In this document: piece after piece, positions 38,960-45,495 of the stretch
Position numbering within the stretch: the stretch's first letter is position 1
Layout of the letters: the number at the start of each line of letters is the position of its first letter
Assembly (NCBI GenBank): GCA_026196615.1
Contig: JAPHSW010000242.1
Span: 1-45,495 of the forward strand
DNA: 45,495 bases
Origin: Gammaproteobacteria bacterium
GTDB lineage: Bacteria; Pseudomonadota; Gammaproteobacteria; GRL18
Reading direction: 5' to 3'
Notes under the pieces: generated by a model
What the model was told of the DNA's origin: nothing
Databases searched by the model: none
What the model saw: only the letters and a program-made list of their open reading frames with translations
Translations under genes and position numbers: made by a program

Positions 38960-39253
38960 ATGAGTGAACCTGCAGAAAATACTGAAGGCTTAGTCACCTT
39001 TGATGATACTTTGGATATTACAATGGCAGCGACTTATTTTGAAAAATTGACTGAAATGTTAAATCAACATAAATCAATTGTCTTAGATGGTGAAGGTATA
39101 GAACGAATTGATGGTGCAGGTTTACAATTACTGGTTGGTTTTTTTAAAGCGGCAGAATCATTACATGTCACAATTAAATGGCAAGCGTGTTCTGATGTTT
39201 TGAAAAAGAGTGCCAAATTATCAGGCTTGACTGTTTGTTTGGAAATTAAATGA
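38960..39253 (+). CDS. STAS-domain protein of the chemosensory operon
   Basis: The 97-residue protein is a single STAS domain (LVTFDDTLDITMAATYFEKL, VLDGEGIERIDGAGLQLLVG). The Ser/Thr phosphorylated in SpoIIAA-type anti-anti-sigma factors is Gly52 here (IDGAG), so control by a serine kinase is not expected. Such small STAS proteins head many chemosensory operons before cheY-cheA; their role is unclear. It is the first gene after the FliA-type promoter. Confidence 0.85.
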   Translation: MSEPAENTEGLVTFDDTLDITMAATYFEKLTEMLNQHKSIVLDGEGIERIDGAGLQLLVGFFKAAESLHVTIKWQACSDVLKKSAKLSGLTVCLEIK

Positions 39254-39350: not shown

Positions 39351-39716
39351 ATGCCCAAATCAATTTTGGCAGTCGATGATTCAACCTCTATGAGACAAAT
39401 GGTTGCTTTTACACTTAAAGGTGCAGGTTACCAGGTGACCGAAGCTGCTGATGGACAACAGGCACTGGACATTGCTAAGACAAGAACTTTTGATATGGTT
39501 TTATCTGATGTCAATATGCCAATTATGGACGGTATTGAATTAATTAAAAATTTACGTGCTTTGCCAAGTTTCAAGTTTACCCCTATTTTGATGTTAACTA
39601 CTGAAGCAGGCACTGAGAAGAAAATGGAAGGTAAAGCTGCTGGTGCAACAGGCTGGATTGTTAAGCCATTTAATCCGGATCAGTTATTGAATACAGTAAA
39701 TCGTGTCCTTTCTTAG
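39351..39716 (+). CDS. CheY-like response regulator
   Basis: The 121-residue single receiver domain has Asp9/Asp10 (AVDDS), phosphoacceptor Asp53 (MVLSDVNMP), the conserved Thr in LMLTTEAG and Lys in VKPFNP. It is expected to be phosphorylated by the CheA encoded 100 bp downstream and either bind FliM or act as a phosphate sink. The symbol cheY is withheld because a second CheY may exist at the main che locus. Confidence 0.9.
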   Translation: MPKSILAVDDSTSMRQMVAFTLKGAGYQVTEAADGQQALDIAKTRTFDMVLSDVNMPIMDGIELIKNLRALPSFKFTPILMLTTEAGTEKKMEGKAAGATGWIVKPFNPDQLLNTVNRVLS

Positions 39717-39816: not shown

Positions 39817-41928
39817 ATGTCTATTGATTTATCACAATTTAAACAAACCTTTATTGAAGAAAGTGATGAAGGTCTTGATGTTCTTGAATCAGGTTTACTG
39901 GCACTGGATTCAGGTACAGCAGATGATGAAGTCATACATGCAGTATTCCGTGCAGCACATTCTATAAAAGGTGGTGCTGGTACCTTCGGTTTAAATGAAA
40001 TTGCCAGTTTCACTCATGTCATGGAAACACTTTTAGATGAAATGCGCGATGGACGGCGTGCAATAAGTAAAGAAGGTGTCAATCTTCTTCTAAATTCTGT
40101 TGATGTCTTAAGAGAATTAATGGATGCGGCACGAGATGATGTGGCACCTGAAATGTCACGAGCAAATGAAGTACAAGCACAACTTGATGTCTTACTGGCG
40201 AATAATGATGGCCAGGTTCAAAGTGCTGATGTATCGGATGAAGAGCAAACTGGGAGTGGTGTTTCTAATTCGGGATCAGAACAAAAAGGATGGATAGTTA
40301 AATTCCGTCCACATGAACATATGCTCCGCACTGGAAATGATACAGTGAGAATGTTCAAAGAGCTTTCATCACTTGGTGATATGGAAAACTCTGCAGATTT
40401 GACGACACTACCAGAATTTACACTGATGGATCCTGAGCTTAGTTACTTGAGTTGGACAATAACTCTGAAAAACAATGAAGAGCAGGGTGATATTGACAAA
40501 GCTACAATAGAAGAAATTTTTGAATGGGTTGAAGACGATTGTGATTTAACAATTGAACCTTTATTTGAAGGTGGTTTGGTTGAGACAGAAATAGAACCTT
40601 CAGAACCTGTCGAAAATGTCATTCCCGTTGCCGAAGCTGCAACAATTTCTGATAACGTAAAGCCCATCGAAGAACCTCCGGTTGAAAATACCTCTACTGA
40701 AAGAGTATCACCCAAAAAGAAGAAATCATCTGAAGGTGGTTCAATCCGTGTTGGTACTAATAAAGTTGATACTCTGATTAATATGGTGGGTGAATTAGTG
40801 ATTACCCAATCCATGCTAAGTCAGATGGGTGATGAATTTTCCATGGATAAATTGGAAGGTTTACGTGAAGGTCTGGCACAACTAGAACGCAATACTCGTG
40901 AATTACAAGAAAGTGTTATGCGTATTCGTATGTTACCTATCAGCTTTTCTTTTCAACGTTTTCCTCGGCTGGTACATGATCTGAGTCAGAAAATGGATAA
41001 GAAAATTGAATTAAAAATGACCGGTGAACAAACAGAGCTGGATAAAACAGTGATGGAAAAAATAGGTGACCCTCTGGTTCATCTGGTTAGAAATTCTTTA
41101 GATCATGGTATTGAATCCCCTGAAATTCGCCTTGCTGCCGGTAAAAGTGAAATGGGGACAATTAATCTTAATGCTTATCATCAGGGTGGTTTTATCATTA
41201 TTGAAATTGTTGATGATGGTGCAGGCTTGCCTAAAGATAAATTGCTTAAAAAAGCAATAGAAAAAGGGCTGGTGTCTCCTAATGAAAATTTACCCGATGA
41301 AAAAATTTATGATTTAATTTTCCATCCAGGATTTTCAACTGCCGATCAGGTGAGTGATATCTCTGGTCGTGGTGTCGGCATGGACGTCGTCAGGAAAAAT
41401 ATAAAAGAACTGGGCGGTAATGTTGATGTAACGACCAATCCAGGCAAAGGAACTAAATTTACTATTCGTTTGCCTTTAACCCTTGCTATCCTTGATGGCC
41501 AGTTGATTCGTGTTGGCAGTGAAACTTATATTATCCCTCTCGTTTCTATTATTGAATCATTAGAAATACAGACTGAAAATATTAATTCAATCGCAGGAAC
41601 AACAGAAGTTTATAAAATGCGTGATGAATATATACCCTTAGTTAGGTTGTATGAGGTCTTTGATGTGAAACCTGAAACGACTCGTTTACAAGATTGTTTA
41701 CTTGTCGTAGTTGAAGGCGATGGTGGTAAAGCGGGTATTGTTGTGGATGACTTATTGAGTCAGCAACAAGTTGTGATAAAAAGTCTTGAAACAAATTATA
41801 GACGACTTGACGGTATTTCCGGTGCAACTATCTTAGGTGATGGTACTGTGGCACTGATTTTAGATATGTCTGGTTTATTGGCTATGGCAAAAGAAATTGA
41901 ACCCGTACGATCTTATGCCAATGCTTAA
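39817..41928 (+). CDS. cheA: Chemotaxis histidine kinase CheA
   Basis: The 703-residue kinase has an Hpt domain (phosphoacceptor His48 in FRAAHSIKGGAG), an acidic linker region of about 160-320 with a P2-like part, the P3 dimerisation helices (GTNKVDTLINMVGELVITQS), the ATPase domain (N box DPLVHLVRNSLDHGIE, G1 DDGAGL, G2 SGRGVGMDVV) and the CheW-like P5 domain. It is cytoplasmic and works with the adjacent cheW and the receptor at 43397. All catalytic motifs are intact. Confidence 0.94.
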   Translation: MSIDLSQFKQTFIEESDEGLDVLESGLLALDSGTADDEVIHAVFRAAHSIKGGAGTFGLNEIASFTHVMETLLDEMRDGRRAISKEGVNLLLNSVDVLRELMDAARDDVAPEMSRANEVQAQLDVLLANNDGQVQSADVSDEEQTGSGVSNSGSEQKGWIVKFRPHEHMLRTGNDTVRMFKELSSLGDMENSADLTTLPEFTLMDPELSYLSWTITLKNNEEQGDIDKATIEEIFEWVEDDCDLTIEPLFEGGLVETEIEPSEPVENVIPVAEAATISDNVKPIEEPPVENTSTERVSPKKKKSSEGGSIRVGTNKVDTLINMVGELVITQSMLSQMGDEFSMDKLEGLREGLAQLERNTRELQESVMRIRMLPISFSFQRFPRLVHDLSQKMDKKIELKMTGEQTELDKTVMEKIGDPLVHLVRNSLDHGIESPEIRLAAGKSEMGTINLNAYHQGGFIIIEIVDDGAGLPKDKLLKKAIEKGLVSPNENLPDEKIYDLIFHPGFSTADQVSDISGRGVGMDVVRKNIKELGGNVDVTTNPGKGTKFTIRLPLTLAILDGQLIRVGSETYIIPLVSIIESLEIQTENINSIAGTTEVYKMRDEYIPLVRLYEVFDVKPETTRLQDCLLVVVEGDGGKAGIVVDDLLSQQQVVIKSLETNYRRLDGISGATILGDGTVALILDMSGLLAMAKEIEPVRSYANA

Positions 41929-41993: not shown

Positions 41994-42506
41994 ATGAGTA
42001 ACATTCAGGACATTGTAGGGGATTTAGATGCATTGACTGATGAAAATGCTGATCAGTATTTAACCTTTATTATTGCAGGTGAAGAATATGCAATAGATAT
42101 TCTTCGAGTACAGGAAATAAAGGGGTGGGATAAAGTCACTACATTGCCGAGAACTCCAGAATACTTACAGGGCGTGATTAATTTACGAGGCACAATTGTC
42201 CCTATTGTTGATCTAAGAAAACGTTTTAATATGCCAACGATTGTTTATGGTCCAACAACAGTTGTTATTGTTTTAAGAGTTGTAGGTGAAGAACATGATC
42301 GAATTATGGGAATAATTGTTGATGGTGTTTCTGATGTTCATAATCTAAAACATAATTCAATTAAAGCCGCACCTGAAATGAATGGCTCAATAGATGCTCG
42401 CTTTGTTTCTGGGCTCACTACGATCAACGATAAAATGGTTGTGATCATGGATATTGATACTTTGCTTAATTCATCTGATTTAGATTTGGAAGATAATGTT
42501 GCCTAG
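41994..42506 (+). CDS. cheW: Chemotaxis coupling protein CheW
   Basis: The 170-residue CheW has the two SH3-like subdomains: YLTFIIAGEEYAIDILRVQE, TTLPRTPEYLQGVINLRGTI with PIVDLRKRF, and IMGIIVDGVSDV. It bridges CheA P5 and receptor tips. GGAG precedes the ATG at good spacing. It lies between cheA and parA. Confidence 0.94.
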   Translation: MSNIQDIVGDLDALTDENADQYLTFIIAGEEYAIDILRVQEIKGWDKVTTLPRTPEYLQGVINLRGTIVPIVDLRKRFNMPTIVYGPTTVVIVLRVVGEEHDRIMGIIVDGVSDVHNLKHNSIKAAPEMNGSIDARFVSGLTTINDKMVVIMDIDTLLNSSDLDLEDNVA

Positions 42507-42536: not shown

Positions 42537-43373
42537 ATGAACGTGATAGCAATAATGAATCAGAAAGGGGGGGTTGGTAAAACCACCACGACATTAAACC
42601 TTGCTCATGCACTGGCTCTGCAAGGAAAAAATGTTCTGATGCTCGATATGGATCCACAAGGACATCTAAGCAGTTGTTTTGCCGTTGATACCTATAATAG
42701 TAGTGGCATGGATGAAGTGTTAATAGATAATAAATTATTGCAAGAAGCCTTTATAAACGTAAGGGAAAATCTTTTTCTTGTCCCTGCAGGAGCAAGATTG
42801 GGTGAGTTAGAAAGCAAAGCGCAAGAAGGTAGTAATAAGGGATATCGTTTACATGAGGCCCTGTCAGTGATGAAGTCGGAAGGGTGTTTATTAACTGACT
42901 CATCTTCAGCTAAAGGCTCTTCATTAGCTGAAGGCTCTCCACCAGCTGAAGGCTCTCATCTGGATTATATTCTAGTGGATTGTCCACCAGCCTCTGGTTT
43001 ATTAGCAATGAATGTTATTTTAGCTTGTGATGAACTGATTGTTCCTGTTACTGGAGATTATCTGGCTTTACAAGGACTATCAAGACTTATAAAGGTGGTT
43101 AGTCATATTGAGCAGACACTACAAAGAAATACAAAAAAATGGTTTGTAATAACTCGTTTTCAAAAGCAAAGAAAGCTGGCTAATCAAATCAGAGAAAAAA
43201 TGGTTGGATATTTTCCTAATCAGGTTTTTGAAACTGCCATTAGAGAAAATGTGTCTTTAGCAGAATCACCTGGCTTTTCAAAAACTATCTTTGAATATAA
43301 ACCTAAAAGTAATGGTGCTGAAGATTATAAAAACTTAGCAATTGACCTATTAAAACAACGAACATTTCACTGA
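42537..43373 (+). CDS. ParA-family ATPase of the chemosensory operon
   Basis: The 278-residue ParA/MinD-type ATPase has the deviant Walker A KGGVGKTT (10-17), Walker A' MLDMDPQGHLSS and Walker B YILVDCPP (144-151). A basic C-terminal segment (FQKQRKLANQIREK) could bind DNA non-specifically. It differs from FleN and chromosomal ParA by place: directly between cheW and a soluble chemoreceptor. ParA relatives PpfA (Rhodobacter) and ParC (Vibrio) position chemosensory arrays. Residues 123-140 form three hexapeptide repeats (SSAKGS, SLAEGS, PPAEGS) just before Walker B, an unusual insertion for this family. A partner ParB-like function may be supplied by the basic N-terminus of the next protein. 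Confidence 0.9.
   Translation: MNVIAIMNQKGGVGKTTTTLNLAHALALQGKNVLMLDMDPQGHLSSCFAVDTYNSSGMDEVLIDNKLLQEAFINVRENLFLVPAGARLGELESKAQEGSNKGYRLHEALSVMKSEGCLLTDSSSAKGSSLAEGSPPAEGSHLDYILVDCPPASGLLAMNVILACDELIVPVTGDYLALQGLSRLIKVVSHIEQTLQRNTKKWFVITRFQKQRKLANQIREKMVGYFPNQVFETAIRENVSLAESPGFSKTIFEYKPKSNGAEDYKNLAIDLLKQRTFH
42903..42956 (+). repeat. Three 18-bp tandem repeats inside the parA gene
   Basis: Units at 42903-42920, 42921-42938 and 42939-42956 each end in a common core (AGCTGAAGGCTCT, with AAA in the first unit). Being 18 bp, changes in number keep the frame, so the loop length could vary between strains. The repeats encode the hexapeptides given under the parA gene. Confidence 0.85.
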
Positions 43374-43396
43374 AGTAGTATAGGCAGAAGAAAGTA

Positions 43397-45495
43397 ATGG
43401 CAAAAAATGATGAACGTCTTGGATTTGACCCACTTGCCTGGATGGGAGATGGTGAACATTCTGACGATGAACAAAAGACCTCAGATGAAATAAATTCAAA
43501 TAAATCTAATGTTATAGCAAAAGATGCCGATACGATTTCTAGTGGTGACGTAAAATCAACAGCTAAGAAAAAAGCAGTAGTTAGAAAAAAAGCGGTGACT
43601 AAAAAAGCTGTGGTGAATGCAGGAAAAACCACTAGTACAAAAAAAGTGGTGAAAAAAAAGGTAGCACCTAAGAAAAAAGTGGTTAGAAAAAAAGCTGCCC
43701 CCAAAAGTAAACAAACATCGGAAACAAATATGTTGGATCTAGTTAAAAGCAGTTTTTCCGCTCTGGAACCTCAGGCAGAGGAATTGACGGGCACATTTTA
43801 TGAACGTTTATTTAATAAATTTCCACAAGTCGTCCCCTTGTTTGAAAACACAGACATTAGTCAACAATCTAAGAAACTTTTGGCAGCATTAACCCTGGTG
43901 GTTAATAATATTGAAAAACCTGATGTTTTAGAACGTGCTCTAATGAGTATGGGTGAAAAACATCAGGGATATGGTGCATTACCTGAACATTATCCCGCGG
44001 TTGCAGAAACATTATTAGAAGTAATGTCCGAATATGCCGGAGAGCTTTGGACAACAGAAGTAGCTCAAGCCTGGGCTGATGCATTAAATCTAGTTGCTGA
44101 AAAAATGATAGCAGCTTATAAAGAGACACCTAATTCAACTAATTTGAAGACAGAGGCAAAGACAATGGCAACAAAACAATCCGGTGCCAATCAACTACAA
44201 ACTGCAATGCTTAATGCCATGACTTCAGCAGTAATGACGATTGATTTGGACTTAATTATCACATATGTCAATCCTGCCGCTCATGCATTAATGAAAAAGG
44301 CTGAAGAACGCTTAAGACAGAATTTTCCAAACTTTGATGCGGATAATCTTGTTGGTGTTTGTATTGATGATTTTCATAAAAATCCTGCTCATCAACGTCG
44401 ACTATTAAGTGATCCTAATAATCTCCCTTATCGAGGTATGGTAGATTTGGGTGATACACAATTTGATTTAAACGTGACACCTTTGTTTGATGAAAAGGGG
44501 ACTTTTATTGGCGCTTGTCAAGAGTGGAAAGACATCACTCAAATATTATTAAATGAAACAGAAGTAGCGCGATTGAGTGCTGCTATTGGTGGTTCTCAAA
44601 CTGCCACTATGATTGCAGATCAAGATCTCAAAATCGTCTATATGAATGATGCAGTTACTGAATTGTTAAGAAATAGAGAGGACGAATTAAAACAAATTAT
44701 GACAGGCTTTAGTGTCGATAACTTGATTGGTACCTGCATTGATGACTTTCATAAAAATCCAGCACATCAACGAACTCTTTTATCTGATATGTCACAATTA
44801 CCTTATCAAACAGAAATTCAGGTATTAGATCTCTATTTTGAATTAAATGTTATTGGTATTCAGGATAAAGATGGTAATTATATGGGTAACTCAGTTGAGT
44901 GGCGTGATATTACCGAAGTGAAAAAAGGACAAATGCAAATTGAGGAGTTAATTCAAGCAGCTGCTAAAGGAGAACTTGGTCAGAGGTTGAATGTTGATGA
45001 GTATGATGGTTTCATGAAAGATCTGGGTGCGGGAATGAATCGTATGCTGGATGAAATTGTCCGTCCTGTTCATGGTATTTCACAAGTTATTAAAGCTTTA
45101 GAAGAAGGTGATTTAGTCACACGTATGGAAGGAGAGTATGACGGTGAATTTGCTGTTTTACAGGAAGCCATGAATAAATCTATGGAAAATCTGTTAAAAA
45201 TGGTGTCAGAGATTCGAGGTTCATCCAGTCATATTTCTTCTGCGGCCAATGAAATTTCTCAAGGTAATACAGACTTGAGTCAACGGACAGAAGAACAAGC
45301 TTCTTCATTGGAAGAAACTGCTTCGAGTATGGAAGAGTTAACTTCAACTGTGAAGCAGAATGCTGATAATTCTCGTCAAGCTAATCAATTAGCAGCCGGT
45401 GCACGAGATCAGGCACAAGAAGGTGGACAGGTTATTGAATCGACTATATCAGCAATGGAAGAAATTAATTCTTCAAGTAAAAAGATTGAAGATAT
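43397..45495 (+). CDS. Soluble globin-coupled chemoreceptor with histone-like Lys-rich tract (3' end outside window)
   Basis: The first 699 residues are visible; the rest lies past the window. Order: a conserved-looking N-terminal peptide (RLGFDPLAWM, 8-17); an acidic Asp/Glu/Ser linker; a histone H1-like Lys/Ala/Val tract (about 53-106) with more than 20 Lys; a VHb-like globin (about 112-243) with CD1 Phe149 and proximal His189 (EKHQGYG); two PAS domains (about 265-385 and 392-508), both with FHKNPAHQ (326-333 and 451-458); HAMP-like helices (about 512-605); and the start of the MCP signalling domain (NEISQGNTDLSQRTEEQASS). There is no membrane segment. The globin should bind heme and sense oxygen, signalling to the CheA above. 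It starts 24 nt after parA. Confidence 0.9.
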   Translation, partial: MAKNDERLGFDPLAWMGDGEHSDDEQKTSDEINSNKSNVIAKDADTISSGDVKSTAKKKAVVRKKAVTKKAVVNAGKTTSTKKVVKKKVAPKKKVVRKKAAPKSKQTSETNMLDLVKSSFSALEPQAEELTGTFYERLFNKFPQVVPLFENTDISQQSKKLLAALTLVVNNIEKPDVLERALMSMGEKHQGYGALPEHYPAVAETLLEVMSEYAGELWTTEVAQAWADALNLVAEKMIAAYKETPNSTNLKTEAKTMATKQSGANQLQTAMLNAMTSAVMTIDLDLIITYVNPAAHALMKKAEERLRQNFPNFDADNLVGVCIDDFHKNPAHQRRLLSDPNNLPYRGMVDLGDTQFDLNVTPLFDEKGTFIGACQEWKDITQILLNETEVARLSAAIGGSQTATMIADQDLKIVYMNDAVTELLRNREDELKQIMTGFSVDNLIGTCIDDFHKNPAHQRTLLSDMSQLPYQTEIQVLDLYFELNVIGIQDKDGNYMGNSVEWRDITEVKKGQMQIEELIQAAAKGELGQRLNVDEYDGFMKDLGAGMNRMLDEIVRPVHGISQVIKALEEGDLVTRMEGEYDGEFAVLQEAMNKSMENLLKMVSEIRGSSSHISSAANEISQGNTDLSQRTEEQASSLEETASSMEELTSTVKQNADNSRQANQLAAGARDQAQEGGQVIESTISAMEEINSSSKKIED

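Follow-up and report, generated by a model that had tools for sequence, protein, structure and literature searches.

A near-invariant N-terminal peptide as a candidate ParA-docking tag on soluble chemoreceptors and STAS-domain proteins of gammaproteobacterial che operons

In the CheOp3 operon of Rhodobacter sphaeroides, the ParA homologue PpfA is encoded beside the soluble receptor TlpT, and the N-terminus of the receptor was reported to contact the ParA homologue, which positions the cytoplasmic chemosensory array (PMC3964821, PMC10924463). A ParA-like ATPase also positions the chemosensory arrays of Vibrio, where the ParC-ParP system acts via ParP and tethers the arrays to ParC, the anchor at the cell pole (PMC5706961). 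In Myxococcus xanthus, the soluble chemoreceptor FrzCD has a basic, histone-like N-terminal tail, which binds DNA without sequence specificity and puts the array on the nucleoid (PMC5716589); in the part of the published account available to us, no ParA partner of FrzCD is described. Here, we analyzed a che operon at the right end of a stretch of 45,495 nucleotides (hereafter the window: contig JAPHSW010000242.1, or C215, of the 4.96 Mb gammaproteobacterial assembly GCA_026196615.1), in which the genes of STAS, CheY, CheA, CheW and ParA proteins are followed by that of a soluble, Aer2-like chemoreceptor running past the contig end. An earlier note on this DNA had placed the last two with PpfA and TlpT, as a cytoplasmic receptor linked to a ParA protein. 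The analysis bears this out, as ParA is encoded beside a soluble receptor and the N-terminal extension of that receptor is, from sequence comparison, clearly tied to ParA. As in CheOp3, the ParA homologue lies beside the soluble receptor gene in a che operon; unlike PpfA-TlpT as described, the locus has a defined, near-invariant motif that can also sit on a STAS-domain protein, and its Aer2-like receptor carries globin and PAS domains. All the evidence presented is comparative.

The ParA protein (42537..43373, + strand, 278 aa) was assigned by Pfam, profile, structure comparison and an AlphaFold model (pTM 0.85), and is of a type that we call chemotaxis-type ParA. The receptor gene starts at 43397 and runs to the last base of the window (43397..45495, + strand; open reading frame (ORF) list, Pfam, contig overlap and hydropathy), continuing on contig C20 of the same assembly. 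Its first 16 residues, MAKNDERLGFDPLAWM (43397..43444, + strand; core GFDPLAWM at 43421-43444), form the candidate ParA-docking peptide and are conserved more strongly than the rest of the N-terminal extension. A variable acidic spacer, defined by composition, follows at residues 17-52 (43445..43552, + strand; net charge -7), and then a Lys-rich, histone H1-like tract. Residues 1-16 are 100% identical in the relatives G004, G006 and G013, in which the spacer is 33-47% identical. Across Gammaproteobacteria, the constant element is (K/R)LGFDPLAWM, residues 8-16 in the window receptor; within the receptor family of the window, the core reads (K/R)LGFDPL(A/S)WM. Taken alone, the receptor N-terminus is predicted to be disordered apart from a helical turn of three residues (14-16), and a literature search for DPLAW found no relevant paper. 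The earlier note had emphasized the Lys-rich tract; from the alignments, this emphasis is misplaced: what stays constant is the N-terminal peptide.

The presence of the peptide follows that of parA. The peptide also opens ParA-adjacent receptors without a globin (G003, G019-G022) and, in G017, one without the tract. In G005, G007 and G010, a homologous che operon has no parA, and its receptors have neither peptide nor tract. Among receptors that are untagged, those of G220, G323 and G089 miss the whole extension and start directly at the globin.

We searched DNA for the pattern GFDPLxWM and found matches in 11 of 369 Gammaproteobacteria genomes, with none for the reversed pattern used as a control. 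In all 11 cases, 10 of them beyond the window genome, the match is N-terminal in the gene that directly follows a chemotaxis-type parA (Fisher p = 4.5e-12 for the association with ParA adjacency, uncorrected for relatedness). A profile of chemotaxis-type ParA separated its family by a clear gap, with 39 genomes at 249-436 bits and chromosomal Soj/ParA proteins at 224 and lower. The motif or a variant of it (GYDPLAWM, GHDPLAWM, GADPLAWM, GIDPLAWL, GDDPLAALF and KDDPFDWI among them) stands at the start of the gene after parA in 34 of these 39 genomes, on 20 receptors and 14 STAS-domain proteins. Three of the five genomes without it are G249 and G370, where the receptor gene is not nearby, and G254, where a contig ends; the other two, G123 and G338, are described below. 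A scan of 84,980 species returned 57 pattern matches, 43 of them N-terminal with ParA just upstream; all 43 come from Gammaproteobacteria or unclassified Proteobacteria records and include Methylomonas, Methylobacter, Cycloclasticus, Chromatiales and Ectothiorhodospiraceae. The other 14 fall inside unrelated proteins or outside ORFs and look like chance matches. Among 398 genomes across the phylum, the window's own genome was the sole match, with no motif found outside Gammaproteobacteria.

The peptide is not bound to one carrier. When it is on the receptor, the gene order is STAS-CheY-CheA-CheW-ParA-MCP*, the asterisk marking the tagged protein, with a stand-alone STAS gene 5' of cheY. When it is on the STAS protein, the order is CheY-CheA-CheW-MCP-ParA-STAS*, the upstream stand-alone STAS gene is missing, and the untagged receptor gene lies either 5' of parA or 3' of the STAS gene. 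In our operon table, receptor and STAS protein are never both tagged. On a tree of 73 chemotaxis-type ParAs, in which many branches are weakly supported, parsimony requires at least 4 carrier changes. Since the carrier swaps beside parA, the peptide tracks parA and no particular protein. Because the tag switched several times between them, receptor and STAS protein may be parts of one array; a gene-fusion argument makes array membership of the STAS protein likely, and reading the peptide as a tag predicts the same for the STAS protein of these che operons. When further carriers were scanned, 9 of 10 STAS proteins and one globin-STAS protein matched Pfam STAS_2, the match in the G055 STAS protein being below the Pfam cut-off; the G199 carrier has no Pfam match and was assigned to STAS by similarity. 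In both G055 and G199, the peptide is on STAS proteins whose che genes are elsewhere. Two of the 14 STAS-domain carriers also bear a globin. As a separate observation, the peptide begins a globin-STAS fusion protein after parA at L092:7624-8571 and L093:5583-6524, possibly a soluble haem sensor other than a chemoreceptor.

The ParA partners of these carriers have an altered pocket. PDB 8ray is the closest solved relative (its ParA is cited in PMC12462528), and we therefore transferred the Mx ParA numbering. In that work, ParB residues 1-20 and the ParA pocket were described, and ParB R13 was required for ATPase stimulation and dispensable for binding (PMC12462528). We compared 50 chemotaxis-type ParAs with 20 Soj proteins. 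The position of Mx Y81 is Asp in 45/50 chemotaxis-type ParAs; that of D110 is Arg in 27/50, versus Asp in 18/20 Soj; that of V116 is mostly Thr or His, versus Val in 17/20 Soj; and that of L150 is Ser or Ala in 48/50, versus Leu in all 20 Soj. The window ParA has D59, R87 and S153 at Y81, D110 and L150. The positions of L152, L155 and L192 remain hydrophobic in nearly all chemotaxis-type ParAs, and the catalytic K36, D58, D60 and Q62 are retained; the window protein itself keeps the Walker A motif KGGVGKTT and the catalytic Asp and Gln. Taken together, the ten pocket positions outrank random sets among the differences between Soj and chemotaxis-type proteins (permutation p = 0.003). As far as the alignment can tell, the ParB-binding pocket of chemotaxis-type ParA is re-specified. 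Like the ParB motif LGRGLxALL, the peptide is short, N-terminal and hydrophobic and ends in Ala followed by two large residues, and the same ParA cleft is expected to take it. It differs from the ParB motif in having a central DP and no central Arg or Lys, the partner pocket for this Arg being altered as well. Given that the ParB Arg is missing and an invariant Asp is nearby, a charge-swapped contact between D11 of the motif and R87 of ParA is an attractive idea.

We consider it probable that (K/R)LGFDPLAWM is a portable ParA-docking tag on array cargo, with the Lys-rich tract as a distinct element that the tag can do without. The receptor would then combine sensing of the oxygen or nitric oxide (NO) type with a second role, as the handle by which a ParA system positions its cargo. 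Residues 1-16 would dock onto the neighboring chemotaxis-type ParA: on the nucleoid, the ATP-bound dimer would hold the tag in the cleft where chromosomal ParA receives the ParB N-terminus, possibly with stimulation of the ATPase. Because a soluble array would present many tags, ParA could tether it, space it and hand it to both daughters, in parallel with the positioning and inheritance of a cytoplasmic array by PpfA and TlpT. In the receptor form, the array may touch the nucleoid twice, via ParA through the tag and via DNA through the H1-like tract. More tentatively, and with somewhat less than even confidence, we propose that the peptide is an undescribed ParA-cargo tag insulated from chromosomal ParB by the pocket changes, with these two nucleoid contacts in the receptor form. 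The peptide bears on how one cell keeps apart several ParA systems, each with its own cargo. In the published view, ParA partners mainly share a charged, disordered N-terminus (PMC10241942). As the motif of a putative ParA partner, it can be searched for, swaps carriers in nature and goes with matching changes of the ParA pocket, which makes partner specificity directly testable; as a small tag, it could also let a ParA expected to ignore ParB move protein complexes of choice.

Several observations weigh against the docking-tag reading. The genomes are mostly metagenome-assembled and related, so that the sequence counts are not counts of independent events. In G123 and G338, ParA has no tagged neighbor and CheR comes directly next. 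At the position matching the stimulatory Arg of ParB, the motif has mostly Phe, else Tyr, His, Ile, Ala and others, and in the set compared never a basic residue; in some STAS carriers, such as that of G141, there is almost no positive charge near the motif. ATPase stimulation may for these reasons differ or not occur. We do not claim homology between the motif and the ParB N-terminus, as the two residue patterns look alike but their profiles are only weakly similar and align best out of register, at an offset of 2, column-shuffled profiles scoring as well in 87 of 5000 cases. Finally, the arginines with which Soj binds DNA are replaced, which could point to a loss of DNA binding: Mx R235 is Glu in 50/50 chemotaxis-type ParAs and R238 is Ala or Ser in 45/50 (E237 and S240 in the window ParA). 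In Mx ParA, changing R238 to Glu abolishes non-specific DNA binding (PMC12462528). Chemotaxis-type ParAs gain other basic residues nearby, at 210, 217, 234 and 253, and the surface stays basic; nucleoid binding by chemotaxis-type ParA would thus, by sequence, still be likely.

The Lys-rich tract (residues 53-106; 43553..43714, + strand) was defined by composition and is predicted to be disordered, nearly all of residues 1-103 having low confidence in the predicted structure. It has 21 Lys, 2 Arg and no Asp or Glu in 54 residues (net +23) and is the most basic 54-residue stretch of any ORF in the window, the runner-up, in another ORF, reaching +18; the earlier note had described the tract correctly. 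In G004, G006 and G013, tract identity is 41-46%; as a basic stretch it is kept in relatives, and so is more than a chance feature. We counted a linker as basic at a net charge of at least +8 in 25 residues. Receptor carriers have a basic linker in 28/45 cases (median net +4), versus 0/22 STAS carriers (median net -11; one, G132, is mildly positive at +3), a difference with a Mann-Whitney p = 1.5e-9, uncorrected for relatedness. At least eight receptors have no basic tract at all. Because it is missing in several receptors and the linker is acidic on STAS proteins, the tract accompanies receptors and is unnecessary for the ParA partnership. Direct DNA binding by the tract is plausible by analogy with the N-terminal tail of FrzCD and with the H1-like repeats of AlgP and PhaF, which tether granules (PMC9239181). 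That it is an optional, non-specific nucleoid tether of the FrzCD/PhaF/AlgP kind, separate from the ParA contact, seems to us a nearly even call. FrzCD shares with the window receptor its solubility and a basic, histone-like stretch near the N-terminus (PMC5716589), and differs in that its tail is at residues 7-27, with no docking motif before it and no globin or PAS domains. The earlier note knew of no histone-tailed receptor combining these domains; FrzCD is a described histone-tailed receptor, and what stands is that the full combination of docking peptide, H1-like tract, flavohaemoglobin-type globin, tandem PAS and MCP was not found in the literature searched.

These data also bear on other explanations. 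The tract might itself anchor the receptor to the nucleoid, with the peptide contacting another array protein or a polar landmark and ParA acting elsewhere. The DNA binding and array placement by the FrzCD tail, the granule tethering by AlgP and PhaF and the enrichment of basic linkers on receptor carriers would all fit, but the peptide tracks parA and not the array, down to the STAS proteins of G055 and G199 with their distant che genes, and we regard this explanation as unlikely. The earlier note had raised another, in which the strongly basic tract contacts ParA and stimulates its ATPase, as the basic ParB N-terminus does. This fails to account for receptors that pair the same ParA family and the same N-terminal peptide with no basic tract (G017, G056, G075, L099, L116, L118, L122 and L143) or for the acidic linkers of STAS carriers other than G132; moreover, the tract lies about 40 residues beyond the conserved peptide and diverges fast, which leaves this role for it improbable. 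It is a shade more doubtful still that ParA positions the array via CheW, as proposed for Halothiobacillus ParC, and that the peptide arose as a by-product of how the operon is built: CheW is treated as the ParC partner (PMC10241942) and cheW lies 5' of parA in most tagged operons, but a near-invariant peptide moving among unrelated carriers beside parA is unexpected for a by-product. Least credible to us is that the tract binds polyphosphate instead of DNA, an idea drawn from the end of the gene cluster, where ppk1-ppx and an H1-like Lys/Ala-rich protein are encoded, and from the localization of the H1-like AlgP to polyphosphate granules (PMC9239181), since what supports it is the gene neighborhood and the H1-like gene is also present in G005 and G007, without ParA or tract.

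Beyond the extension, the receptor consists of a globin, two PAS domains, HAMP and MCP (all coordinates on the + strand). The globin (43727..44125; Pfam at residues 133-237, and family matches) is of the flavohaemoglobin/single-domain type, its best matches being flavohaemoglobin and Hell's Gate globin and not the sensor (GCS) family, and it keeps a Tyr (FYERLF) and a proximal-type His (EKH). Both PAS domains are of the Aer2 type by Pfam and by the motif FHKNPAHQR, at residue 326 in the first (44180..44545) and residue 451 in the second (44564..44926). Together, globin and PAS domains suggest putative oxygen or NO sensing. The HAMP domain follows (residues 540-596; 45014..45196; Pfam), then the start of the MCP signaling domain (45386..45493), interrupted by the contig end. 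Pfam supports the globin and tandem PAS domains named in the earlier note, whose MCP domain is cut in the window and completed on C20. The note was also correct that no membrane helix is present: the maximum Kyte-Doolittle value in a 19-residue window along the receptor is 1.45. The C-terminus, EWEEF, fits the CheR-tether pentapeptide x-[HFYW]-x(2)-[HFYW], a general feature of Aer2-like F7 receptors (PMC7184735). With PAS-HAMP-MCP, no membrane helix and this pentapeptide, the protein resembles Vibrio and Pseudomonas Aer2 (F7), and differs from them by the added globin, tract and docking peptide. Its best NCBIfam match is Vibrio Aer2 (NF041847), at 512.7 bits for the contig-cut gene and 787.1 bits for a complete relative; the PAS-HAMP-MCP portion is closest to this family, yet below its curated cut-off of 1200. 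Like HemAT, the receptor has a haem-type globin on the N-terminal side of the MCP; unlike in HemAT, two PAS domains separate globin and MCP, and the globin belongs with the flavohaemoglobin/Hell's Gate type.

The frames of ParA and receptor are open and intact and lie directly 3' of STAS-CheY-CheA-CheW; the earlier note had named ParA, CheA and CheW as neighbors of the receptor. Upstream on the + strand are the stand-alone STAS protein (38960..39253; Pfam STAS_2 and operon table), then, from the ORF list and Pfam, a CheY-type response regulator (39351..39716), the CheA histidine kinase (39817..41928) and the CheW coupling protein (41994..42506). The first 59 bases of contig C20 match the window end exactly, and from this overlap we infer the join; the joined receptor has 904 aa and ends in ...SDDSEWEEF. 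Contig C118, with an MCP fragment at its edge, had been a candidate continuation and was set aside given the exact overlap of C20. In the relative G004, the gene order is identical and contiguous on one 4.2 Mb contig. On C20, the genes after the receptor encode CheR, CheD, CheB, a second STAS protein, a response-regulator hybrid and an Hpt protein. There is no ParB gene among the operon genes, the one TIGR00180 ParB of the genome being on a different contig, and the window's operon yielded no ParP-like protein.

Some further observations concern the same genes. At 42900-42960 of the window, ParA has a variable, repeat-like insertion rich in Ser, Ala, Glu and Gly, SSAKGSSLAEGSPPAEGSH, with residues 122-138 predicted to be disordered; it is present in the window genome and partly in G013, and not in most relatives. 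At the end of the che cluster on C20 (L046:6309-10729), a 204-aa Lys/Ala-rich H1-like protein (net +48) adjoins ppk1 and ppx, an arrangement reminiscent of AlgP, the protein that spaces the polyphosphate granules of P. aeruginosa. An H1-like gene and ppx and/or ppk homologues also adjoin in G004, G021, G007 and G005, with or without ParA. In G056 (L066:4389-6884), a globin domain is fused into a CheA-like protein 5' of the same ParA type.

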